64,000 bases of DNA from Gymnopus androsaceus JB14 (taxonomy: Eukaryota > Basidiomycota > Agaricomycetes > Agaricales > Omphalotaceae): contig ML769434.1 of the NCBI GenBank assembly GCA_009733575.1, positions 62,444 through 126,443 on the forward strand, given 5' to 3'. Below the pieces are notes generated by a model, which was given only the letters and a program-made list of their open reading frames with translations, did no database searches and was not told the origin of the DNA. A program made the translations under genes and the position numbers. Position 1 is the stretch's first letter. Each line of letters opens with the position of its first letter. Below, piece by piece: positions 1,542-62,819 of the stretch.

Positions 1542-3981
1542 ATGAAGACATTACCTCTCATCCTGCATTCTGTCCTCTTTGGACTCGTTCAATCTGCTTC
1601 CCTCGAGGTTAAACTCACTTCCGGAACGTTCCTAGGCGTCTCAACTCCAAATGGAACAGACCAGTGGCTGGGAATACGTTATGGTACTCCGCCAGTTGGA
1701 GACCTTCGGTTCAAAGCACCTGTTGCCATCACTCAACCAAACACTACTACCGTCCAAGATGCTTCGACTTTCGGCAACGCTTGTCCTCAGCGGCCGGCGA
1801 CAGATTTGGGTGCGCCGCTGAGCGAGGACTGTCTTTTCCTCAATGTTCATGATTATGACTGTGTATCTTGTAGAAGTTGGTGCTAATGCTATCTTTGTAT
1901 AGGTCTTTCGTTCCCAAAACACAACCGCGGACGCGAAGGTTCCTGTGTTAGTCTGGATACATGTGAGAATAGCTCAGATTTCGTTCAACCATTTGAAAAA
2001 GTTGTAACCTAGTACATATTAGGGCGGAGCCTATACGGACGGGTGAGCTCTACGCTTAGGCTGCTCTGAAAAAGCAGGTACCAACCATTTCTCTCTATAG
2101 CGCAGCTTCTGAGGCCGAATTTGACCCCACTCGTACGTCGTAAAATCTTGCATTACTATCTTACCGAATATCGTCATAAAAGGAATCCTCACACAAAGCG
2201 TCGCCGTTGGCAAACCCATCATTTTCGTTTCGATGTAGCAAATTAAGCTTACTCCTGAGAATGATATGTATTTACTGATAACGACCTGCCTTACCAGAAA
2301 TTACCGGTTGAACACGTTTGGATTTGTAAGTCCGTTATATGTACCGAGATATCCCTTATACTTACAGCTTTATGTTTATGGTCAGCTTTCCAGCTCACTC
2401 GTCGCCCCTGAAGATCTCAACGCAGGTCTACTCGACCAACGCTTAGCATTCGAGTTCGTCCAGGACAACGTAGCTGCTTTCGGCGGAGATCCAAGTATGC
2501 ATTCCTCACCCGATTAAGAAATGAAAACTGAATAGTATCCGTTTTGACTTTTTTCAGCAAAGGTTACAATTTGGGGCCAAGTAAGACAGACTACATGTCA
2601 CGCTTTATTTGCCACATTTGTGCTTACAATCATCTCCAACCTAGTCCGCTGGGGCAGGAAGTGTCGAATCACACATTCTGTATTCATCGAACCGAACTCT
2701 TTTCAGAGCGGGCATGGGTGATTCTTCTACCGGACCATTGCGAGTCTTCGTCGTTCGGTGGTAACCTGGAATCTGATTGTTGTTGAATCTAGTAAATCCT
2801 CTCCTCCAGCAAGCACTTATGATCGACCTGGTCTACCATTCAGCAACCTCCTTAAAGCTAGTGGATGCACTTTCGGTCCCGAAGCAATCCCATGCTTGCA
2901 GAGTATACCATTCGAAGTGCGTCCGGATTGAACGATTTGCGATTTTTTTTCTTAATTAACCTAACCTATCTTATGTAGACTCTTCTGAACATCAGTAACA
3001 CGTTGATTGACGGGGCGCTAAACGGACAACTCTGGCAACCTTCAATCGGTCCACCAGGGAGTTTCGCTGATGTTGAAGCGTCAATCAAGATCCAGAGCAA
3101 GGAATTTCTTCACGTACCTTACCTAGGAGGAACGAATGTAAGTTAGTTGATTGAACTCTTTGTTCTCATACTGAGCCGCATCTACAAAGGTGAATGAGGG
3201 AACAATATTCAGCCCTTCCATCGAGGGTCTGGGTCTTACCGGCGCTGCACAAAACGAAGCTTTCATCAACTTTATTGGCCACCTAGTCATTGATAACAGT
3301 ACTTTGACTGAAGATGTCTATAATGATATCCTCGCTATGTGGCCAGGCGAACGATCCACTCTTGGGAGCACCATTCAACACAGGAGACTCCCTTTTTGAT
3401 CGTGGAGAAGCATGGTACACTGACGAGTTCTTTCTGTCGCCCCGGCGATTGTTCTTTGAAAACGCAGCTGCCCTGCAACCATATGTTCGCATACTACTTC
3501 AGAGAGTTCATCCCTGGACAGAATCCCATGCTCGGAGGTGATTTACTTTTCTTGCAATCATATTACATGAAATGTAGACTGATCTAATTACACACAGTCG
3601 CTCACGCTACGGAGCTGCTTTTGCTGTTTGGACCAGTGCCGACTGCGGTTGAGGATACTTTTGCCAACCAAATGCTTAATTTCTACATCAACTTTATCAA
3701 CGATATGAATCCTGGATGTGAGTCCATAATTGACCTGTCGAGTCGGAGCTAAAGCTATTTTTTTTTCGTCCACAGCTCCCTGGCCAGAGTATAGTACAGC
3801 TGCCAATGCAAACAATGTCATGCAACTGCTACGCAACAACATAATCGCGATTCCAGATAGTACGTATCGGACTCACGCTGGAAGTCGTTTGGGAACTAAC
3901 GAGAGAATTTATCTAGCTTGGGATATTGATAAGACCGATTTCTTGAATACGCAAAAGGTTCTCGATGAATTCCAGAAGTAA
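1542..3981 (+). CDS. Type-B carboxylesterase/lipase, secreted, with two apparent frameshifts
   Basis: Secreted alpha/beta-hydrolase of the cholinesterase-like family. The start at 1542 gives a signal peptide ([19 protein letters not shown]). About 15 exons can be followed: 1542-1862, 1903-1962, 2023-2042, 2101-2132, 2183-2234, 2298-2325, 2386-2494, 2558-2580, 2645-2760, 2793-2916, 2979-3137, 3190-3537, 3598-3717, 3776-3859 and 3917-3981. Visible family motifs are [18 protein letters not shown], the nucleophile elbow GQSAGAGS, and the catalytic-His segment [13 protein letters not shown] near the end. The donor at 2761 is uncertain because it makes a 32-nt intron. The reading frame must shift by one base near 3342 (before [18 protein letters not shown]) and again near 3482 (before [15 protein letters not shown]). 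Both look like single inserted bases, so this is either a young pseudogene or a residual sequencing error. Confidence 0.85.
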
Positions 3982-36120: not shown

Positions 36121-37277
36121 ATTGCTCTCGGATCGATTGAATGCTGGAACCGTGAAGCCAGTCTGGAAGGGGTAGCAGTGGTGTGTTAGAACGTGTAGTG
36201 GTATGCGAATCACCTCTCGCGCTGTCCAGGTAGTCACTGGTTCCGATGAAGAAGTTATTGTCGCTGCCAGCTCTAGTGGCGCGAAAGCTGGTCTACGTTC
36301 CAAATGGGGCGGTGGCGAGCTGCGCTCTCGCGGCAAGATGGTTCGTCAAGGCTCAGAATGGACGATGGAATCCAACCCTGGCTCCCCTGCTATCGGCGGT
36401 GGCTACGGAAGCTACACTGGCACACCAGTATTATCGACGTTCTCTCCGATACCTAATTCTCCGTATCTGGGTTATGATAGTGTGGCATATGGGAAGGATA
36501 AGAATTGGTCTGAGAACGGTTTTGAGAGTGACTAGTAGGCTCTCTATTGGAAGGTCCCGCAAACGATGGAAGAGCTGAAGCTTGAACACGGTCCTGCACT
36601 GCCGGCAATTGACAGTGGAAAGCACATCGAGCTTGAGCTTGTGACGCGTGTTGATAAAAATAACGGAAAGCTTTGCAGGACTGGAGAGCCATCTACTTCA
36701 CAAGAGACCTAAAGTGAAAAAAGTTAAATATAAAGTAAACAATAAGCACAATGCAGCGGACGTACTGCTTGCATTAAAGCGCAGTAGTTCGAACTACTAC
36801 TCCAATCCAATCTAAATCCTGCAATAACCAACCATTCCAAGATATCATCGCGGCAGGGATTGAGAGGAAAAAGCAGGAGAGATGTGACGGTTTTCAGAGG
36901 TAAAAGGACTGAGCAGATAATGAACAAGGGTGGATCGGAGGCGGTGAATCAGAGGCGATGAGAGAACAATGGAGAAAATTAAGCGCCAGCATAGTCACAG
37001 AAAACCAGCGCCCAGTCACAGCCAATTTGGCGGTGATTTCAAGACTCTGTGACATTAAGGTTAGGGTGAAACAAAAAAGGAAATCGAGAGTGCGCGAGTG
37101 CAGTACATAAAGACGAATCCTTCATTTCATTTCGGACTCGTAATATCAACTGCAATGACTCCATCAACAGTCACGGCAGGGAGAACCAAAAACCTCTCTC
37201 CCCATAGAAAAACTGCTCATTGTTGGCAAGCCTGCCCAGGAAAAGACCAGCCATGGTTGCATTGACAGTTCTCATGC

Positions 37278-37481
37278 TGTAATGCCCCCAATCCCTGATT
37301 GGTAGGAATTCAGTCCTTACTAGTGGCAGCGCATTCCCGTGCCTGCCAGTTATCTTATATTATAATAATTATGTAACATACCTTAGCTTTATACCATCAC
37401 CTCGCAAGTAACCCACTGAATAAATCCAGTAGTACTTGTTTGCATGATACTAAGGCTCTTGACTCCCTAGGAGTCGTTACA
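37278..37481 (+). repeat. Left LTR
   Basis: 204 bp, TGTAA...TTACA. It contains its own inverted repeats (CCAAT/ATTGG; GACTCC/GGAGTC near the end). Pairs with 40209-40412. Confidence 0.85.
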
Positions 37482-37490
37482 CTTTTTTAG

Positions 37491-37913
37491 TACCTGAGTA
37501 CTCTTCAGCAATCCCCGCAATATGCAGAGTCCTTCTTGCAAGCATGTGCAAAAGCACAGGCCACAAGCCAAAAGGCTCTCCGTGAAATTTCGGAGTTCAC
37601 GGAAAAATTTCAGCTTGACTCATGTTGGGCTGATAGCAATGTTTGTTACATTGCCAAACTGAGTTGTTTTCATGACCTGGTGTTTAATAAGGCCAAGGAC
37701 ACAGTTCTTGGCACCATTCAGCTTGACTCTGATCAAGCTGAATTTAATAATGTTCAATGCAAACATTCTAGCATGGCTAAGGCCATGCTCAATTTTAATT
37801 CTCAGCTCGACCCATATCAAGCTGATGGCAATGTTCATTACATTGCCAAATCAAGTTGTTCTCATGACTCGGTTTTGAACAAGACCAGGGGCACTGTTCA
37901 GCTTGACCAGTAA
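37491..37913 (+). CDS. Repetitive frame 1 of the LTR element
   Basis: Open frame after a TAG at 37488 with no early ATG; it reads FLQACAKAQATSQKALREIS and then two copies of a unit of about 50 residues containing ADxNVxYIAKxSCxHD and SSMAKAMLNF. A third copy begins the next frame (37944), after a TAA at 37914. The start at 37491 is the open-frame limit, not a known initiator. No known domain. The self-complementary DNA dictates the peptide: for example SMAKAM is encoded across the hairpin AGCATGGC/GCCATGCT. Confidence 0.4.
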   Translation, partial: YLSTLQQSPQYAESFLQACAKAQATSQKALREISEFTEKFQLDSCWADSNVCYIAKLSCFHDLVFNKAKDTVLGTIQLDSDQAEFNNVQCKHSSMAKAMLNFNSQLDPYQADGNVHYIAKSSCSHDSVLNKTRGTVQLDQ

Positions 37914-37943
37914 CATGATAACATTCCTCTCAAACGCTCCAGC

Positions 37944-39191
37944 ATGGCTAAAACCATGCTCAGTTTTCAGCTTGACCCACATCGAGCTGATGGCAATATT
38001 AATAACATTGCCAAACCGAGTCGTTTTCACAACTTGGTGAATTATCCAAATGATCTGCCTGAACATTCTAGTGTGGCTTCAGCTACACCTGTATCACCAT
38101 TTGGGTTAACCCAAACCAATATTTTTCTACAGCAATGTGCAGAAGCACAAGCTGCGAGCCAATGGGCTCTCCATGAACTTCAACAGTTCACAGACACATT
38201 AGCAAAAGCTAACATGCCAGGAGTTAATCCTGGTAGTTGCAATGAACCAGATGTAAAATCTACATCCACGGTGACTGTAAAGTCTCGTAATACAACAAGA
38301 TTGGGTGTGGATTCATACCCAGAACCTGGCATTGTTCAAACAAAATGCATCCCTGAACGGATCCATGCTAGGATCAACTCAGAAGGACAATCTCCTTGTG
38401 GAGATGATCCACATGAGAATGTCAGAGATACTGACGGAGACCGATGGGCTGACATTGCTCAGACAGGCCTAAGGCCTTCCTGTCATCCCTGCTTGTCTGA
38501 CAGTGAAATTTCACTGCCAGATGTCTCTCTGACACTTCCCATGTCCTCACCTCTGCCTCAAATCACTCCTCCTGCTCCTGGTCCTCCCCTGAGCATCAAT
38601 CCACCCTGCAGATCGATTCAGGAAGTGAGTGTCACTCCATGGAAGGTTATGCCTTCCAATATATTTGCATCCTCAGGAAAAGAAATTCCTCTGGGAGACA
38701 TTCCATACTGGAATGTCAGAGATAGTATTGATGGCAAGTGGCAGCCCAGCTACGGCTGGACACACACCAAGCCTTGCAGTCATCCCTGCACACCTGAAGG
38801 TGATTCTCGGACACCTCCCATGTCCTCATCTCTCCCTCCAGCTCCTCTTACCACTCCTGGTACTTGCGGCTACCCAGATGTAATAAATACATCCATGTTG
38901 ATGCCAGAGTTGGGAGGAGAAACTTCTCCAGGAGACGTTCCACTCAGGAATGTCAGAGATGCTGATGGCAATTGGCAGCCCAGATATGGCTGGACAGGCT
39001 TCAAGCCTTGCAGTCATCCCCATGCTCCCAAAGGCAACTACTCACCCCTGGGTGACTCTCTGACACTTCCCCCTTCCACTCCAGTTCCTCACCCTCGCAT
39101 CAATCTGCATCCCAAATTGAGTCAAGAGATGAGGTTCACCCCATGGGAGGTCTTGCCTCCCAAATTGACAGCGGTACTCCCAGGCCCTTAA
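37944..39191 (+). CDS. 415-aa repetitive protein of the LTR element, unknown
   Basis: Uninterrupted frame. Residues 1-40 repeat the MAKTMLSFQLDPHRADGN unit; then FLQQCAEAQAASQWALHELQ parallels the start of frame 1. The C-terminal two thirds hold three modules: ENVRDTDGDRWADIAQTGLR, WNVRDSIDGKWQPSYGWTHT and RNVRDADGNWQPRYGWTGFK, each followed by K/RPxSHPCxP and a Pro/Ser/Leu-rich spacer. No protease, zinc-knuckle or polymerase motif. A structural (gag-like) role is possible by position only. Many hairpin stems lie inside the coding sequence. Confidence 0.55.
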   Translation: MAKTMLSFQLDPHRADGNINNIAKPSRFHNLVNYPNDLPEHSSVASATPVSPFGLTQTNIFLQQCAEAQAASQWALHELQQFTDTLAKANMPGVNPGSCNEPDVKSTSTVTVKSRNTTRLGVDSYPEPGIVQTKCIPERIHARINSEGQSPCGDDPHENVRDTDGDRWADIAQTGLRPSCHPCLSDSEISLPDVSLTLPMSSPLPQITPPAPGPPLSINPPCRSIQEVSVTPWKVMPSNIFASSGKEIPLGDIPYWNVRDSIDGKWQPSYGWTHTKPCSHPCTPEGDSRTPPMSSSLPPAPLTTPGTCGYPDVINTSMLMPELGGETSPGDVPLRNVRDADGNWQPRYGWTGFKPCSHPHAPKGNYSPLGDSLTLPPSTPVPHPRINLHPKLSQEMRFTPWEVLPPKLTAVLPGP

Positions 39192-40208
39192 AAAGGGACT
39201 GGATGAACCGAGTTGCTGTACAGCAACTCCGTGAACAAGATCTCCAAGAAGTTGGAGACTCTCAATTCCCTGATCAGGGAATTTTTTAAAATATCAATGG
39301 GTACCCCGTCAATAGACTCCTGGACAGTGGGAAAGACCCACCATCTAGAAATAGTGAGGGGCCAAACCTGTTGTGAAGTACAAGTTTACAATGGGTTTTG
39401 AAAACTCACAGGGCAAGCTTGGAACATGTACAACATTCACAAGCAAGCTTTTTTTCATTTTGAGAGGGAGGGGCCAGTGTAGAAATACACTAGCTTGCTC
39501 TACATCTCAAGTACGTGGGATTAAAAATCCCTCGAAACACCATCCGCCAGAGGATTGGGTATGCTACATCCAGATGTACCCCAACCAATGTCCTACTGGT
39601 GTAAAGCATGATCACAATGATCATATGCTCCCCTGTAATGTATGGGGATGGAAGTTATTAGTAAGTAACCATGCCCCAGTTACAGCAGTGGGGACTCCCA
39701 AAGTGAAGCAGCATTGCTTCAACTTATGAACAGTGGAGTTGTTCACAACTCCGGGACTTTATGCATCCATTACCGGATGTGATGAGACAAATATTGTCTC
39801 AAAAATTCAACATCACCATATACAAGTGACATCAATAATGCTACATTGGATGATGTAGCCTTGTTTTACACCTCTCAAGGCATTACCATTGAAATGGTAA
39901 AAGACATAACTGTCTTTGCCCTTCAGTGGTTGACTATGTTCCATACAATGGACCCTAGTCTGGGATTTGAGTTACATGCTACACATGACTGTGTTCTTAA
40001 CTCCCATTTCTGAACACTTACGGCACACTGCTGTATGTTCGAAATCCCAGGATATGTTTACAACATGCTGTTGTAAATATATTCCCAACTTCAACTATCA
40101 AGTTGAAGTCTCACATCCACGCTCCAGCTGTGTTGATATGCTATCAAAACAACCAGGGCCCATCTTTCCTTTTTGATTGAACTGTAGGCTCAATCTGGCT
40201 GGGGAGGG
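39192..40208 (+). other. Non-coding 3' part of the LTR element with densest hairpins
   Basis: About 1 kb between the end of the 415-aa frame and the right LTR. There is no long frame, yet it contains two perfect 20-bp palindromes (39210-39229 and 39264-39283) and at least eleven stems of 7-9 bp. Conserved self-complementarity without a reading frame argues that selection or a mechanism acts on the nucleic acid itself. Confidence 0.6.
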
Positions 40209-40412
40209 TGTAACACCCCCAATCCCTGATCAGTAAGAATTCAGTCCTTACCGGCGGCAGCGCATTCCCGTGCCTGCCAGTTATCTCATATTATAATAAT
40301 TATGTAACATACCTTAGCTTTATACCATCACCTTGTGAGTAACCCACTGAATAAATCCAGTAGTCCTTGTCTGCATGATACTAAGGCTCTCGACTCCCTA
40401 GGAGTTGTTACA
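40209..40412 (+). repeat. Right LTR
   Basis: 204 bp, same length and ends as 37278-37481. Differences are mostly transitions. Preceded by GGGGAGGG. Confidence 0.85.
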
Positions 40413-41476
40413 AATGCTCAATACCACTCTCATCAAGCCATACAACATATTCTTTTGGGATGTTTCCATTCTCTGCAACCCAAACAGTGCAAAGGGTATT
40501 ATTTTGCTGCAATGCATATTGCGTGACTTTCTTGCTGCTCATACCTATTCCTTGCAATGTTCTGCTGATAGTGGAGAGTGAAGCATCAATATAGTGATGG
40601 TTCCAAAGGTGGTCATGGATCTCATCCAAAAAGAGCAATGGCATGGTATTCAGTATGGAGAGAATGTACAATTTATCACCAGAATTGAGGACTCATGGAC
40701 AACCATAAGGAATAGCATTAGTATTATACACCTCACCCAATTCACAGTATATCTTGAGAATGGTATAGACTGTGTTGTCACAGCACCTAGCTAACTGAGC
40801 AATCTCATGGATTTGATATCCTTGCTCTATACACCAGTGAACTATGCGTTTACAAAGTTCTTGGCTCAGAGTACAAGGCATTTAAGAAGAATAAAGATGA
40901 TGTATTTTCTGAAGTGCTTGAAACATGGGAAGGATCAATGTGAAGGATTTATATAGAAGACACAGCCCAGTGTACAAATAAACATGGAGAAAATCTCAGC
41001 TGACTCCCAGAACCTAATGCAACAGGCAATATCCAGCCATCTGGGATCTTTCCCAACCATCTTAAAAGGATACCTACTGCAATCATCTGTCACTACCAGC
41101 ATTGTTATTACTACATAGATGTGTAAAAGTATGTGAATTTTCAGATCTCAAAATGAATATTACTAATTTTAGTGCCCAATTAGGCATGGCCTCAACATTA
41201 GTAGACAGACTGAGTATGCAGTCAAGAAGTATATTAGCCATTGCCATATACCTGCATCTATTGAAATTATATCCTTTCAATGTAAAAAAACTCCGGAGAT
41301 CTTTCCTTTTATGGAAGGTACCTTCCTTATTAGGTAATCACATGATGCGTTCATTTTCAGCTGACAGTCTGCAAATTAAAAGTCAAGCTCAGGCTTAGCG
41401 GAGCACAAGCCATGTAGATAGCTTCAATACAAGCTGATTCAACATATTCTGAACATAATTTGATAATACAGTGATG

Positions 41477-50993: not shown

Positions 50994-53479
50994 AAACAGG
51001 TGCTCAATTCAACTGGTGTCTCAGGCAAAGCTCTCTTGTCAAGAACAGCCTGATATTCATCATTGGAGTATGTTACCATGTCCAGTTTTCACTGGATCTA
51101 TTGCACATGCTCTTCCCATTTGTCAGGCTTTTGGCCAAGAAGTTTTGCTTTTTGGTGGGATTGAATAGATTTGCTGCATCATGATCCACCTTTACAACCT
51201 TAGTATATAATGAGTCTACATCAATATGGTGGTCCTAGATACCCTTGATACGTCAGTATTCTTGGTGGAGTGCATCATCAGTTGTTAAGTTGTTCAACTG
51301 GCTCTAGTGTGTGGCTTGGGTTGGCTTCGGGACCCAAAATGGTGACCTGAGCCAAGTCCGAGTATGGGCCTGAGGCTGAAAGCTCAATCACGGGATGGCC
51401 AAGGTAAGGTGGCTTCGGGTTGACCCAACATTTTACATGGCATAAAAAAAGTAATAAAGCAATATAAAACAATATTTACAACTGCTACCAGCTAAACCTC
51501 ATCATCATCATCAAATAAACGGATTTCATCCCCACCATGACCCTTGTCCAACAGGAAAGCTTCAAGCTCAGCATTTGTGATAAGATCTAGACGTGACCAA
51601 TCTCCAAAGCACATAAGTGCTTGAATGGTTGGGCCACGTAGGCAGTTACACAAATGCAGTATAAGGATGCAACCACATGAGAAGGATTGTTTGACAGGCA
51701 CTGCAGTCGCTATATAAATAATGACCAGCAGTAAGCATGAATAAAAGGATTAGTAAAACGTACCCATGATAGTGTGAATTGAAATGGCTAGCTTCGCGAG
51801 GTCAGGATAAACCTTTTGATTCATTACCCACCATTGCAGTGGGTCATTGGTCTGGACATAACTATCTGCTAAGTAGTAGTCAAATTGATCAGTTGCATTG
51901 TTATTTGAGAAGGCTGCTTTAGTCTGAGTAGACATGAGTGATACAAAAATATTTGAAGACAATCCAGGGACCTATAGTAAAACTAAATGTCAGTAAAAGA
52001 AATGAATAATAAAAAGTTTGACTGGCCAGTTTCTCTGTAGGTGAGTCCAATGTAGATGATTCCTTGGGTTTATACCGACCTTCCCAAGCTTTGTGTGCAA
52101 TATCAATAGCATTGTTGATCCAGCCTTGAGGCCACTGCAGTCATTTTAAAGTATTCAAGTTTGAATGAGGGATGAAGAACTATGAAAGGAATCTCAGTGC
52201 ACAAATTCACAATTTGAAAAAATAAATTTACTCATTGCAATTTGATAGATGTGGGAGGTGTCCGTGAGTTGATAATACTTATTTAGTGTTTGCTTTCCAG
52301 TTGAAAGTGCATGTTGAAGCGAGGCTGAGAGCTCTTGCTCATTGACAATACGGGTAGCAAAGGCCTCATCGATTTGATCCATGGCAGGGATGATGGCAGG
52401 GATGTTGGGGGAATTAGATGAAACGAACTCAGTGGCATCCTTTAATATCTGTAGAGCTAGTTGTTAGGTAAAATTGCGAACAATAATTATGGACGTACCA
52501 TCAATATGAAGACGAGACCATCCACAGCTTCCCACTCTTCATTAGATAGTATATAAGCTGCAAGCCTGTTGGAAGCGCTGTCTAAGAACTTATTCACAAG
52601 GTCTTTCATCTCCAAAAATGATTTTAGCATGTCATAGGTTGGGTTCCATCATGTTGCAATGTCACAAGGGAGAGTACGATTCTCGAAAGCCATCCCAGCT
52701 GTAAGTTCATGCCAACATGGGAGGAGCAAGGTTGGGGAGTTGATGATCTTGAATGAAATCTGTCAGGTCTAAGCATTACCAATCAGTCATACAGAAACCA
52801 ATTGACTGAAAAAAAGGAATTGGTTCAATAATTTCCGAAAATGGAAATTTTTATGATTGGTTTGCACCTAGGTAAAGATTTCCATCTTGGGAAATTTTGA
52901 CAAGAACATAGGTGCCAACCAATTGATGCAGGAATTGGTTCAGGATTGGTACGTACTTTCATCAATGCTGTATGTACAGGCTGCACGTTCTCTTCCCAGT
53001 CTTCTCTCTCCTCCTCTGTCATCTCTACCATAACATTGACAAAGCCCTCAATATCATTGGCATCCTGAATACCATTAGCCTGAACATCGTTTATCTGCAC
53101 TTTCAGCTCTTCTATTTCCTCTGCTTCTTCATTTGCTGCATCAACTGCTTTCAACTTTTTCCATTCAAATGGACGAAGGACACCTTTTCATTAATTACTA
53201 GGTGAGCAAAGCGCCAAGTATGTGATACGGTCTAAGAACACCTTTTGCAGTTAAATTGACAACATGAGCAAAGCACCTAACATGGGAACAAGCACCAAGA
53301 AACATTGGAAGCTCCTCTGCAAGTTCTTCAATCATTTTGTTGTTGGCAGAGGTGTTGTCACAGGTGATGGAAATAATCTTTCCAGGTATGTCAGTTTAGT
53401 TGTAGAGCAATTTGGTATTCCTAATGTACCTTGTTCTCAATTCCCCATTCTCTCAGAATCTTTGCAAGCGCCTCAGCTA

Positions 53480-54093
53480 TAGGGCTCTTCACCGTACGTA
53501 CCGTATACGGTACGGTGAAAATTTCCCGTGATACGGTACGGCCGAATACGGTTTGATTTTTTGCTCCACGGTACGGTACGGCAAAAATACGGCCATATAC
53601 GGATACGGTACGGAGTTTCAAACACAATCATTCAAGTACCATTTTTCTATCCATATAATGCACCTGTAAGAGGTACAATTGCTACTCTGAGAGTCCAGTA
53701 AATATTTTTGTATGAAGTCAGGATAATCACCCTTAAGAACGCTACACAGACATGGGTAACACATCTGTCACACTGTGTGACTGGGTCAATCCTCACCAAA
53801 ACCTGAAGATTGGAAGCACAAAATCGAGGCAGAAGTAACTGAAACACTATACTATGTTAAAGATTGAAATATAGTGTATGTAGCTCAATAATCGTTTTAA
53901 TACAACAGTTTTATCGAAACCTTCCCTGTAGCCTCCGTAGTACGGCCGTATTCCCGTATACGGTACGGTAAAATACGGGAATTACCGTACCAGATACGGT
54001 ACGGTCCCATGACCAAAAATCTGAGACGGTACGGAACGGTCACCGTATTTTACGGCCGTATACCGTAGGCTACGGATACGGTGAAGAGCCCTA
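53480..54093. mobile_element. 614-bp hAT-type element built of ACGGTACGG arrays
   Basis: Ends TAGGGCTCTTCACCGTA and, in complement, the same. Exact 8-bp duplication CTCAGCTA at 53472-53479 and 54094-54101. Both subterminal regions are packed with CGGTACGG / ACGGCCGTA words; the centre is unrelated AT-rich DNA. No coding capacity. Confidence 0.9.
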
Positions 54094-54120
54094 CTCAGCT
54101 ATGTTCTTGCCAGAATGGGA

Positions 54121-54939
54121 TAAAGGTGGACACGACTCCGGGTCCTGACCCGGTACCGGCAGGTTTACCTGTGGGAATACCGGCCGGTTTTTTAACCTGC
54201 GGGTCCCGGTACCGGTTTCCCACGGGTTATGCCCGGTTGCAGGTCGCCATTTTTGTTTCTATTGTGACCGGCCGGTAACGGTAGACCCGTGGGAACAAAT
54301 GTTTGGCTTTAATATTGGTACATATTTCACTACTTAGTGCCAATATAGTATACTAATATTATTGGTTAGTACTTACAGTATGTATTAGTTCTGCTTGGGA
54401 CTGATATTAGTGTCTAATACTAGTATACTTACACTAATAGTACTAATACTTTGCCAATAGTAGCTTAATTAATAGTAAGTAAGATAATAGAGGTGACATT
54501 AAGATGCATATATGCAGCTATAGTAGCAGTGATAGTGCATACAGTAGCATAGAGATCTTATTTGGATCCTATCTCCATGTCAAAAGACATTATCAATATT
54601 TTGGTATTATTACCACTGACATTGTATTGAATACTGTACCAATAATGGCTGGATACTTACCAGTCTTTGAATTTAGTACTAACATTGGTGCTAGAATCTA
54701 ATACAAACATACTAGTACCAGTATAAGTACTAATGTTAGTACAAATATTATTACTACTAGTGAGTGCCCTAGTATGGGCAGGTTACACAGGTACCGGCCG
54801 GTTTACCTGTGACAGGTCCCGGTACCGGTTAACCGGTTTCCCACGGGTTTGGAACCGGTCGCAGGTCGCTAGTTTTGCCCTCCGGTTACCGGCATCACAG
54901 GTCCAGGTAAACCGGGACCCGGAGTCGTGTCCACCCTTA
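54121..54939. mobile_element. 819-bp hAT-type element with CCGGTACCGG arrays
   Basis: Ends TAAAGGTGGACACGACTCCG and, in complement, TAAGGGTGGACACGACTCCG, continuing GGTCC. Exact 8-bp duplication GAATGGGA at 54113-54120 and 54940-54947. Subterminal GC-rich arrays (CCGGTACCGG, CCCGGGAC-like, CCCACGGGT) flank a central AT-rich stretch with many TACTAA/TAGTAC words. No coding region. Confidence 0.9.
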
Positions 54940-58505: not shown

Positions 58506-60600
58506 TCATGTCAGAATCTCTCTTTGATTCCTGAGTTCATCAATGTGTAGTGTCATGTGGGTAGAGCATCCAGAGTCAAAAAGAATTGCTCCATAACTGT
58601 GGGCTGATCCTGCATTAGTGCATACTTCTTCCTCCTTTTCATTAGAAGTTATGAGAGTAAGTGATGGAGAAGTGTCTTCAATGTCTTGCACCACATTACA
58701 GCTGTATTTCTTACATCTGTGATATACTGTTGAAACAATACATCTTTCCAGAACTTTGTCAGTGATTTTGGAGAAATCAAAAACAAGGTTTCCTAGCTTA
58801 TCAGGAATTTCAATAGCTGCCCATGATGACTCTGGTACTTCCTCAATCATAGATGAGGATGCCACTTTGTTGTTCTTTGGCCTGTCTCCAGTTTCCATCT
58901 GACTTCTTCTTCTTCTTCTGCTCCTTAGGAGGTTTCATCTCCTTGGCCTCGTCGGCCTGGCTGCATTTGTCCAATGGACATTGATTGCCAAAGTGTCCTT
59001 TGCCTCCACAATTGTAACAGATGGAGTCTTAGCAACTTGTCACCCCTCCTCTGCCTTTACCTCTTCCCCTGGAACTTCCCCTATAAGAATTTCCATCACC
59101 TTGGAATCCTCCTCTTCCCCTGTTACTGGCATAGTTTGCTAATTAATTTTTCTGCTCATTTTGCCTTTGGTGAACCATGCCTTCTGCATGGATAGTGGAG
59201 TTAAGCTCAGCAAAATTAAGCTTCTTATTAGTTTTAATGGCAAAAATGGCTAGAGCATTGATTGTAGGTTTAAAGGTGTCAGGGACAGAAGACATAATAG
59301 TATTGACAAATATATTATCATTGATATCAATTCCCCTAGTTGTAAGGTCATTGTGGATGCTGATCATACTGTCCAGGTGCTGACTGGCTTTAGCTGTGTC
59401 AGTACATTGCATTGTATGAAGCTGCCTTTGTAAAAATGATTCAGTGAAGGCATTTTTCAAATCATAATCCTGGAGTAAATTTTCCCACAACTGCTTTGTG
59501 TTGTTGTAATGCCTATACCTTTGGAATATTCCATCTGATAACCTGCCAATGATTGCATTTAGCAAATCATTATCTTCTCCCTATCAGCATTGTCTGCTTC
59601 TTCTGCAAGAGAAGATTGCGGATTCCATTCTAAACAACATTGATAGCAAATAGATCTAGCTGCAAATTCCACTTGAGTTTTCCACATGTCCCAATTTGAT
59701 CCATCCAACTTTGAAAGGGTAACCTTATCAAAGGCTTTTAATGCTTTAGACATATTTTCATTGTCATTGGAATTTGAATCTGTTTTGAATGCCCCTGATA
59801 ATTCCAAATTTGATGGTGATGATGGAGGTGGAGGATCTTCTGGGAGATCACTAGGCTGGAGTTGTGGAGCTTGTTGTGGAGATGACTGTGGAGGTGGAGG
59901 TGGAGTTTGCTCCAGTTCTTGTTTTGGTAATGGAGCTGGAGCTGGTGCAGGAGTGGGATTAGATGAAGATGATGCTTCTGCTGCAGCTTTCTGTTTGCTG
60001 ACTAGATGTTCACTATGTCTTTTCTCCTGTCTTTTGTTTTCTGCTTTTTTGATATCAGCTTCCTGTGATGGATCAGGTATAGCACTGTAATCTGGTAAGT
60101 TTTTGATATACTTGGTATTGTATTGATTTGGACAAGGTTGTTTAACACAAACAAACCACTGTTCTTTAAAAGGGTTCCACCACCTGTTGCAGATTTTGTC
60201 TTTGTCTGCTATACTGTGCCATTTCATTCAATTCAACAGTCACATGTCACAGGCCCTCAAAAAGTCAAAAATTTTTCCACTGGTCACAGGTCACTGCACA
60301 AAATTTGCCCAAAAATTACAGCTTTGACTGAATTAGGTCCAAAAAAGCTTACAAAGATTGCCCTTTGAGGAAATTAGTCAAAAGGACGATTTCAACACAC
60401 TGATCACAAGTCACAAGGTGTATTGAATTGAATAAAATGCAACAGTATGTGATTTTAAAGTGCAAGGTGCTTTGGAGTCAGCGGCTGGTAATGGTAGCAG
60501 TGTGGCTTTGCTACTGGATGCTGCAGTGGCAGTGGCTACTTGACCTGATGCTGTTCTGCAGGTGGCTGGTGCAGTAGGCCTGGGTTGTGACATCAACAAG
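58506..60600 (-). pseudogene. Copia gag-protease (copy 2), interrupted by a MITE
   Basis: Minus strand. MSQPRPTAPATCRTASGQVA (60595) is followed, after the MITE 60214-60445, by ADKDKICNRWWNPFKEQW and a Pro-rich spacer, FDKVTLSKLDGSNWDMWKTQ (59720), RHYNNTKQLWENLLQDYDLK (59510), NDNIFVNTIMSSVPDTFKPT, an RG-rich zinc-knuckle region eroded near 59000, then NKVASSSMIEEVPESSWAAI (58870) and the retropepsin-like site GAILFDSGCSTHMT (about 58580). The protein order is gag then protease. Integrase and RT are absent. It is highly similar to copy 1 but extends further, into the protease. Confidence 0.75.
60214..60445. mobile_element. 232-bp TA-flanked MITE in Copia gag
   Basis: Ends CTGTGCCATTTCATTCAATT and, in complement, CTGTTGCATTTTATTCAATT; TA duplications at 60212-60213 and 60446-60447. 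Interior has repeated GTCACAGGTCAC words. Same family as 60758-61023. Comparison with copy 1 (TCATATAGCAGAC) confirms the empty site. Confidence 0.85.
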
Positions 60601-60647
60601 AGCTATGTCCCCAAATAGATGCATCAATAGTTAAGGCTGGGGTCCAT

Positions 60648-61278
60648 AACCTATTAGAGTTATGTTCCTAAATAGGAAGTAGCAGCAGTAAGTCCACTCA
60701 GGACTTAGTAGTAAAATCACACAGATTGATGGGGGATAATGGTGGTATTACAGGGTACTGTACCATTTCAATCAATTTGGCAGTCACGGGTCACGGAGGC
60801 CTTCTGATGTGCCGAAATTTGACCAGGTCACAGGTCACATTTCGAAAGTGCCAAAAGTTTTTGGCATGACACACTCAAAATTGCCTCAAAAAACGCAAAT
60901 TTTGGGTCAAAAATGCCGAATTTTTGCTGGGGTCACGCAGCTCCACCGCGAGGTGCCGAATCCAAAATTTTGTCGGGTTGGTTACGGTCACATGAGCCTG
61001 CCGAATCAATCAAAATGGTACAGTATTGTACCTAGGCTTATATACAGTCCTATGTATGTATGATATTTCAGGCAAGTGGTTACTGTGTGAATGTCTGTGG
61101 CTACTGTGCATATGGTGAAGTGGGTACTACAAGATAGTAGGTGGATATGGTGAGAGACTAAATGGAGACTGCAAGACAATAGATGTGGAGTGCATGGGGT
61201 GGTGATACAAACAAGTGGATACTATGAGAAAGCATTTCATGAATAGATAGACAGAAATATACCTTTGATATTCCAACA
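60648..61278 (-). repeat. Copia copy 2 LTR/leader, containing a MITE
   Basis: Reading on the minus strand from TGTTGGAATATCAAAGGTAT (61278) it parallels 45342-45700 (shared CACCACCCCATGCACTCCA; GGACTGTATATAAGCCTAGG; CTTACTGCTGCTACTTCC). The 3' LTR limit is not resolved. Confidence 0.65.
60758..61023. mobile_element. 266-bp TA-flanked MITE in Copia LTR
   Basis: Ends CTGTACCATTTCAATCAATT and, in complement, CTGTACCATTTTGATTGATT; TA duplications at 60756-60757 and 61024-61025. Interior holds GTCACGGGTCACGG and CAGGTCACAGGTCACA. The empty site is seen in copy 1 at about 45590. Confidence 0.85.
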
Positions 61279-61489
61279 GATCACTAGGTTCAACTAGTAA
61301 GTAACTTGGATTGACAATGGTTGAGTATAAAATTGATCAAAGATGCTTTTATTTTCTGATAGGCCAACCTACGACACGGTATTTGTATACAAATACATTA
61401 CACTGTAATAGAAATGTTATGTCTACAAATTTCTTACAATGTAACAGTAGTCTCGTAATGTATCCAAATTAAAATCCTATCTTACATGT

Positions 61490-61575
61490 GCCTGATGGTT
61501 GAGCGGTAATCCTAATCCACGTTTCTGACAGGTAAATGTCTGTTAGTGAGTGTTCGAACCTCCGGTGTGTTAATT
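61490..61575 (+). other. tRNA-like segment (Pol III A and B box) in fold-back arm
   Basis: TGGTTGAGCGG (61497-61507) fits an A box and GTGTTCGAACCTCC (about 61550) fits a B box, about 45 bases apart. The left arm has a related copy (complement of 57147-57200) with GAGTGTTCAATCCCC. A complete cloverleaf does not form by eye, so this is a SINE-like relic rather than a tRNA gene. Confidence 0.45.
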
Positions 61576-61690
61576 TAAAATAAGTATGTATTTTTCTTTT
61601 TATGCAATGCCGTGGCTAGCTCTTGTTAGGGTTCACCCTTTGGGTGAACCCTAACATTAGAGAGCTAGTCAGGCATTGCCAAATGTCCTG

Positions 61691-61728
61691 GGTTAGAGGT
61701 TAGGGATTGGGGTTAGGGTTAGGGGTTC
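61691..61728. repeat. Telomere-like TTAGGG block, right arm
   Basis: GGTTAGGGATTGGGGTTAGG followed by GTTAGGGGTT. Inverse of the block at 56992-57022. Confidence 0.65.
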
Positions 61729-62819
61729 CGGTCTCTCGAAATAAGCACAAACAAGGCTTTAGAGTGCCCGCCGACAACTTCCCGGCCCGGGGGACCCCCC
61801 GAGCGCAGCAAGGGAGGGGAGGGAAGCGGAGGCGGCCCGAAGTTTGCACGCCAAATTATATTACTATTAACGGTAGTAAGAGTTGATGGGACCTACAGTT
61901 GTAATAAATTTGTAGACATAAGGGTTTATTACAATTGTAATACATTTTGTATACATTAGTTGTGTCTGGGGCTTGATAGGCTAGGATGTTATGGTTGACT
62001 ACAGATCACAGGTCAGATACTTTCCAAAAACTCAAAACATTATAATGATGTGCTTCACTGGGTGGGACACCAAAATGGAAACTGGGATAGGGACCTAGGG
62101 TTATGCAATACAATTCATAGACTCAACATTGGATACAAGGTAATTTATTGAGGTTAGAAAGCCTCAATGTCAGCAGACAATGGCAGTCAACAAAGAAGAA
62201 GCTATCTGAAAAAACAAGCATAAGAGAAAACATGGAAAAGTGGCCCATGGGAAACAATTGCCTAGAGTGGCCGTTTTTTGGAAGTTTTGTCCAATCGCTG
62301 CATACAGGACCTTCCCTTCCCTTCGGTCAGTGTCGGACACGCAAAATACACATAATTTATCACAACGTACTTATTAGCTGCAATGATACCAAAAAGACAT
62401 CCTAATATCTTTATTGCAGGCATGTCACTGCTTCAAGTGCTTACTGGGTGCTTACCTATGTCAGTGTGATATAAATGTTCCTCAGTATTCAAATATGTAC
62501 TTAACTCATGTAGGATTAGTTTACAATACTAAATTACTCAAAAGATATTGTTTTCAGCATGGTAGTTACAGCTTACTATTGTATATATAATCATTGTACA
62601 TAGTTAGTACATGATAGTTTTGCTTAATGATTAAATATCTTGCAATGTTGCAATATGTGACAAGCCATGTTGTAAACCTCAAAAAAGAGTTTTTAGTGCT
62701 TAACTATGTATATATAAATAGGGTATAACCATGATTGAACATATACTAAGTGTATCAGTGCAATACTTACATTTATGATCGAAATTTTCGTTCTGTTATT
62801 CAAACTCAACTTTTGAAGG

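Follow-up and report, generated by a model that had tools for sequence, protein, structure and literature searches.

Ordered folding along the length of a genome has been described in RNA viruses, where genome-scale ordered RNA structure (GORS) takes the form of consecutive stem-loops, with a folding energy well above that of shuffled sequence and with paired sites that are less variable (PMC7642675). Among retrotransposons with long terminal repeats (LTRs), large retrotransposon derivatives (LARDs) and terminal-repeat retrotransposons in miniature (TRIMs) carry LTRs but no gag-pol, and are assumed to be mobilised in trans (PMC7215508). Retrozymes are non-autonomous LTR elements with a structured RNA, about 70% of whose bases are predicted to be paired (PMC4918200), and Helenus is a non-autonomous LTR group of basidiomycetes (PMC10886601). 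The element described here shares these respective traits. It occupies positions 37278-40412 of a 64,000-nucleotide stretch of DNA (hereafter, the window) from the mushroom Gymnopus androsaceus JB14 (contig ML769434.1, positions 62,444 to 126,443 of the forward strand), and is an LTR element, as a preliminary description of the sequence had reported, with a pair of 204-bp LTRs with TG...CA ends around an interior filled with short inverted repeats. It belongs to a large non-autonomous LTR family in which no pol is recognisable, and is itself a decayed copy.

The preliminary description had claimed a large excess of hairpins in this interior, arranged as an almost continuous chain. We counted perfect stems with loops of 3-10 nt in the interior (37482-40208; 2,727 bp), using dinucleotide shuffles as controls. 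There are 34, 21, 10, 5 and 1 stems of at least 6, 7, 8, 9 and 10 bp, respectively, versus means of 5.5, 1.7, 0.5, 0.2 and 0.07 (maxima 11, 5, 2, 1 and 1) in 60 shuffles. Re-measured, each of the 18 hairpins for which coordinates had been given pairs perfectly over its stated length; the 20 perfect stems of 7 bp or more that had been counted become 21 non-overlapping ones (loops of 3-9 nt), and the guess that about one such stem would occur by chance is close to the shuffle mean of 1.7. The window was also divided into 23 blocks of 2,727 bp, of which the 21 outside the element served as flank control; these contain 1-13 stems of at least 6 bp and 0-6 of at least 7 bp. The highest counts outside the element, 13 stems of at least 6 bp each, are found in blocks 51814-54540 and 59995-62721. 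The minimum folding energy difference (MFED), i.e., the excess in RNA folding energy over shuffles, averages 33.6% on the plus strand (z -5.1) and 28.3% on the minus strand (z -4.7) over 17 overlapping 300-nt segments of the interior, versus 1.1% (z -0.1) for the plus strand of 40 flanking segments. Stem counts and folding energy agree on a large excess over both shuffled and flanking DNA, contrary to the equal density under which the preliminary description would have been refuted.

This excess is unevenly distributed. The chain is dense in the 5' part of the interior (37482-38380, plus strand), which is akin to the internal repeat units that other copies carry and has 13 stems of at least 6 bp (mean 2.0, maximum 6, in 200 shuffles) and a plus-strand MFED of 24-54% (segments starting at 37482-38232). 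It is dense again in the 3' kilobase (39190-40208, plus strand), with 15 such stems (mean 2.3, maximum 7, in 200 shuffles). Between them, in the middle part (38381-39189, plus strand), the excess is weaker, with 6 stems versus a mean of 2.1 and a maximum of 6 in 200 shuffles, and a plus-strand MFED of 12-19% (segments starting at 38382-38982).

For comparison, 40 loci were retrieved from the genome, and 27 further copies with paired LTRs were chosen; these are 2.2-5.5 kb long, some with insertions, and have interiors of 1.8-5.1 kb, most copies falling at 2.7-3.5 kb. Other copies keep the hairpins: pooled, the 27 have 13.9 stems of at least 6 bp and 10.2 of at least 7 bp per kb, versus 1.1-2.9 per kb in shuffles (three per copy) and 4.5 per kb in their pooled flanks, a value that includes L019, where the flank of each copy contains the other copy. 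The hairpin excess is present in all 28 copies measured, and so is the folding excess dependent on sequence order by which GORS is recognised (28 of 28, plus strand; weaker at 38381-39189 of the window). The MFED averages 44.5% on the plus strand (range 24-61%) and 37.2% on the minus strand. In one young copy (L022), 69 hairpins, with mismatches allowed, cover 46% of 3,381 bp, and 134 distinct hairpins with stems of at least 7 bp were found in 13 copies. Several stem motifs recur. In the LTRs themselves (n = 49) stems of at least 6 bp number 8.2 per kb, versus 2.1 in shuffles, and those of at least 7 bp only 0.3 per kb. In six Gypsy regions of 4 kb that contain long open frames, the density of stems of at least 6 bp is 3.2 per kb (shuffles, 0.9-2.0), and within a Copia element nested in a family copy on C484 the count, taken per 500 bases, drops to about 2-4 per kb. 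The earlier report of hairpins is confirmed, and falls short of what the family as a whole shows. A diverged relative, L057 on C251, is 72-81% identical to L022 in pieces and has local hairpin clusters too.

Hairpin density rises with the identity of the two LTRs across the 28 copies, with Spearman coefficients of 0.55, 0.65 and 0.56 for stems of at least 6, 7 and 9 bp, respectively (p 0.00016 for stems of at least 7 bp); for stems of at least 10 bp the coefficient is 0.36 (p 0.06). Copies thus seem to arrive carrying hairpins, and then to lose them.

To separate changes made after insertion from those made while the family replicated, we aligned the 3' kilobase of 40 sequences, namely that of the window copy plus 39 more, not all of them complete. 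Singletons were taken as mostly post-insertion and variants present in at least 3 copies as mostly inherited; CpG-prone columns were masked, and each of the 40 copies was used in turn as the source of the stems. Singletons are equally frequent in and outside stems (median ratio 1.06), whereas inherited variants are depleted in stems (median ratio 0.37, i.e., 2.7-fold rarer). The odds ratio is below 1 for all 40 reference copies, with p<0.05 in 37, in tests that share data and so are not independent; in 37 of the 40, shifted stem masks reach the observed depletion in under 5% of cases. In the columns where early-branching copies agree, the main lineage has changed 1 of 218 stem columns versus 30 of 429 non-stem columns (1 of 211 versus 28 of 422 with CpG masked). 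In a projection of 28 copies, the odds ratios in the 3' part were 0.20-0.75 for 8 references, 4 of them with p<0.05. Because private variants ignore the stems and inherited ones avoid them, we conclude that these sequence comparisons show selection to have kept the 3'-kilobase stems while the family replicated.

Two choices shaped this analysis. Before CpG masking, the odds ratio was 0.46 (p 0.0019) with the window-copy stems and 0.62 (p 0.047) with three-copy stems; masking sharpened the test for the window-copy stems, from 0.46 to 0.20. Across the family, CpG sites have changed repeatedly in many copies, a recurrence that can be mistaken for shared inheritance. In addition, the divergence of the window copy from the others, 6.0% in stems versus 15.5% outside them, was dropped as evidence of constraint and replaced by the comparison of inherited and private variants, because conditioning on the perfect stems of one copy biases the result.

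The hairpins are mostly perfect stems of 6-12 bp with loops mostly of 3-6 nt. Among stems of at least 7 bp in four young copies, loops of 3, 4, 5 and 6 nt account for 32, 47, 24 and 15 cases, versus about 1 each in shuffles. Loops of 0, 1 and 2 nt are also enriched (11, 5 and 17) and would open to 4-6 nt in a folded strand; loops longer than 20 nt are near background (28 versus 22.7). In the predicted fold of L022, 65% of the bases are paired, and 79% of the pairs span less than 50 nt, versus 49-52% in three shuffles. The loop peak at 3-6 nt and the short pair span fit better with the folding of one strand than with binding sites on duplex DNA.

A single long reading frame also covers most of the interior in copies that are better preserved. 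In L022, one plus-strand frame of the interior has 4 stops and the other two have 44 and 77; the longest uninterrupted plus-strand frames comprise 705 codons (L014) and 689 codons (L015). The window copy retains a 425-codon remnant of this frame (37914-39191, plus strand), with 75% and 61% identity, over partial length, to annotated G. androsaceus proteins, and a 979-residue gene model (P0007) lies on the same contig as L022. Apart from one metagenome protein of the Joint Genome Institute (JGI), all protein relatives that were found belong to G. androsaceus. Pfam gave no match over cut-off for five related proteins (P0002-P0006) or for the window's own frames, and sequences of solved structures in the PDB gave no match to the element's proteins. 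Over the first 2,300 bp, the ratio of nonsynonymous to synonymous changes (N/S) in the long frame is 0.60 for inherited variants versus 0.88 for singletons, the corresponding values in the other two frames being 0.84/0.92 and 0.79/0.81. At 2301-3190 the long frame has no such drop (0.65/0.66), while the two other frames do, so protein constraint is unsupported there. Hence the hairpins span the reading frame and also a 3' part without frame-specific constraint, in keeping with the earlier contention that they run through coding and non-coding parts alike. Internal units of about 171-180 bp (in L011, L022 and others, at about 800-1700 of the interior) carry related hairpins and encode imperfect repeats of about 57-60 residues in the long frame.

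Taken together, these data suggest a role for a strongly folded single strand in the life cycle of the element. We give roughly even chances to a model in which this is a non-autonomous LTR family whose hairpin-chain transcript is selected to fold locally and is mobilised in trans. The selected molecule would mainly be the full-length transcript, folding locally along its length in a manner that may be pictured by analogy with GORS in some RNA viruses. Compactness would probably benefit this RNA by protecting it from nucleases or silencing, and an autonomous LTR element would provide, in trans, the proteins for its packaging and reverse transcription. Stems this short are generally thought to be below the length required by Dicer; they could therefore shield the RNA without feeding RNA interference (RNAi). 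We would also propose, tentatively, that selection has shaped the interior, including its coding part, into a chain of local hairpins, possibly on both strands, and that this either evades the RNA surveillance of the host or aids packaging by a foreign Gag. What the folding is for we infer; the feature itself is real and strong.

Several results weigh against the model of a locally folding, trans-mobilised transcript. No mobilising partner was found for the family. GNRA tetraloops are not enriched (3 of 46, equal to their complement). In the 5' part, the 28-copy projection gives odds ratios of 0.53-1.33 for 7 references, none of them significant, and a tree-based count in the 3' kilobase, with stems from the tested copies, gives 0.83 (p 0.36); the claim of selection is accordingly one about the 3' kilobase. 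Covariation among orthologous copies is marginal, with 27 double-change pairs versus 20.9 +- 1.9 (maximum 27). G-U pairs should be tolerated in RNA helices, yet in-stem G-T and A-C mismatches occur equally often: over all copies they number 63 and 89, respectively (expected ratio 0.79), and by age class, in 25 of the 28 copies, 9/9, 18/19 and 16/21. The minus strand, moreover, folds almost as well as the plus strand.

The support for the 5' part comes from the hairpin excess itself and from covariation between the repeated internal units. From 22 distinct units (61 were cut out), 21 were used, with 300 shuffles as control; 1017 cells are Watson-Crick, versus 978.5 +- 8.4 (maximum 1000), and 59 are double-changed, versus 38.5 +- 4.2 (maximum 49). 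Double changes affect 18 pairs, which equals the shuffle mean of 18.1. Thus, of the check that had been proposed on the stems in other copies, conservation is borne out in the 3' kilobase, and covariation is weak among copies and stronger between internal units.

The strand symmetry just described also bears on a different explanation, namely that selection acts on the hairpins of both strands, either in the single-stranded cDNA of reverse transcription or in RNAs of both polarities. We regard this as unlikely, though it is the strongest of the alternatives. The two mismatch classes, G-T and A-C, do not differ in frequency at any age, the folding excess on the minus strand nearly equals that on the plus strand, and the loop lengths are compatible with either RNA or single-stranded DNA; for some retrozymes, both RNA polarities have been reported (PMC4918200). 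Mismatches in genomic copies may, however, mostly be post-insertion decay, which is symmetric under any model, and the MFED is higher on the plus strand in 28 of 28 copies, a comparison in which the shuffle baselines differ by strand and the copies are related. Inherited non-CpG changes in stems, 6 from Watson-Crick to G-T and 5 to A-C, are too few to decide. Given the similar mismatch numbers and so few inherited changes, we do not claim selection on the plus-strand RNA alone. The compactly folded RNA put forward in the preliminary description is still the best reading, with the qualification that equal G-T and A-C numbers do not specifically favour RNA of the plus strand.

It is improbable that the hairpins are a mutational by-product without benefit, generated by template switching or snap-back synthesis that copies one arm onto the other. 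Template switching is able both to make perfect stems and to mend them, and offers a route by which perfect inverted repeats in RNA hairpins can originate (PMC8794818); the strand symmetry of the mismatches is compatible with it as well. Among recent private changes, however, we see no sign of it: in the 3' kilobase, the 21 private multi-base clusters include 6 that improve and 7 that worsen local pairing, and the 85 in the 5' part include 25 of each kind. The snap-back templating suggested earlier thus finds no support there. Nor should the copying of arms lower the substitution rate in stems, and yet inherited variants are depleted in them. Gypsy coding regions and the nested Copia of the same genome are without the excess, although protein constraint could hide it. 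An older burst would escape this test of recent changes. Template switching may have given rise to the first stems; it does not explain why they were kept.

That the palindromes are duplex sites for dimeric proteins, or the product of duplication of a few hairpin modules, is very improbable: the internal units do bear related hairpins, and several stem motifs recur, but the loop lengths peak at 3-6 nt, the 13 copies hold 134 distinct hairpins, and the 3' kilobase, which lies outside the repeated units, has 15 stems versus 2.3 in shuffles.

Paired direct LTRs with TG...CA ends and a short target-site duplication identify the element as an LTR retrotransposon. In the window copy, the 5' LTR (37278-37481, plus strand) and the 3' LTR (40209-40412, plus strand) are identical at 188 of 204 bases, and 15 of the 16 differences are transitions. 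The 5' target-site duplication, CATGC (37273-37277), has a 3' counterpart, AATGC (40413-40417), with one mismatch; by eye, an exact duplication of 5 bp flanks 18 of the 27 other copies, in one case after a 1-base boundary shift. A polypurine tract, GGGGAGGG, lies directly before the 3' LTR (40201-40208, plus strand), and GGGAGGG occurs at this site in 26 of 28 interiors by eye, the others differing by a base. No primer-binding site was recognised, the tRNAs of the genome being left uncompared: by eye, no TGG was seen near the end of the 5' LTR, and self-complementarity to the LTR extends over 6 bases only. The genome holds at least 40 matches to the LTR (40 of 121 candidates were scored), at least 46 to the 3' kilobase (40 of 70 candidates were scored), and 43 LTR-interior junctions with at most 1 mismatch. 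A junction pattern with at most 3 mismatches matches 66 times, versus 45 in the control; of two matches with more than 1 mismatch that were examined, that on C251 is the diverged relative L057, and that on C395 (L056) shows no relationship. When the window flanks were joined at the insertion site, no long frame was restored (longest, 111 codons). Adjoining the 3' LTR are minus-strand frames (40408-40881), one with a weak HTH_23 match below cut-off, which we take to resemble a decayed Tc1/mariner-like transposase. On C484, the Copia element lies in opposite orientation within a family copy (L012 from about 2741, L055 up to about 2716); we do not name it as the mobilising partner.

If the body of this multi-copy family is under selection for folding, the question of why some RNA genomes fold end to end would become testable in an ordinary mushroom, with dead copies of graded age at hand as an intrinsic neutral control. 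The family could then also inform on how pol-less non-autonomous elements are picked for packaging, and on the survival of their RNA under silencing.

How, then, does the family compare with the described classes? An autonomous LTR element encodes reverse transcriptase and integrase; the proteins scanned here have no Pfam match over cut-off. TR-GAG elements encode Gag only; here the long frame lies close to the 5' LTR, and the related proteins scanned have no Pfam gag match. LARDs have long LTRs and a large conserved core devoid of coding capacity; the LTRs of this family measure about 200 bp, and its long frame has a lower inherited N/S in the first 2,300 bp. In TRIMs, the internal domain is almost absent, in contrast to interiors of 1.8-5.1 kb. 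Set against LARDs and TRIMs, the family combines LTRs of about 200 bp with an interior mostly of 2.7-3.5 kb that holds a long reading frame. Cassandra is described as forming LTR-LTR super-hairpins (PMC7215508), unlike the chain of local hairpins in the interior seen here. Retrozymes, as presented in PMC4918200, yield RNAs of about 700 nt, and copies of this family are several times longer and carry a long reading frame; retrozymes are marked by a hammerhead in the LTRs, and Rfam gave no hammerhead match in 36800-40900 of the window (up to E 1) or in five loci (up to E 0.5). All Rfam matches obtained for the window copy and these loci were below the gathering score, and no tRNA match to the LTRs of the family was seen; Helenus is defined by tRNA-derived sequence in its LTRs, and PMC10886601 nowhere uses the word hairpin. 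The available text of PMC9757828, on fungal hairpin small RNAs, makes no mention of such an element. A search of the mostly open literature, mainly at the level of titles and abstracts, brought up no description of an LTR family built as a hairpin chain, which agrees with the preliminary description.

In its organisation, the family resembles GORS. Mean MFED values of virus genomes include 15% for SARS-CoV-2 and 23.4% for the highest, with local peaks above 50% (PMC7642675); the family mean of 44.5% exceeds these means, at about twice the highest, as obtained with a window length and shuffling other than those of that study. GORS differs in that here the carrier is a fungal LTR element, the positions of the stems are conserved among copies, and the folding is predicted. 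What is new is a family of non-autonomous LTR retrotransposons with a GORS-like organisation.

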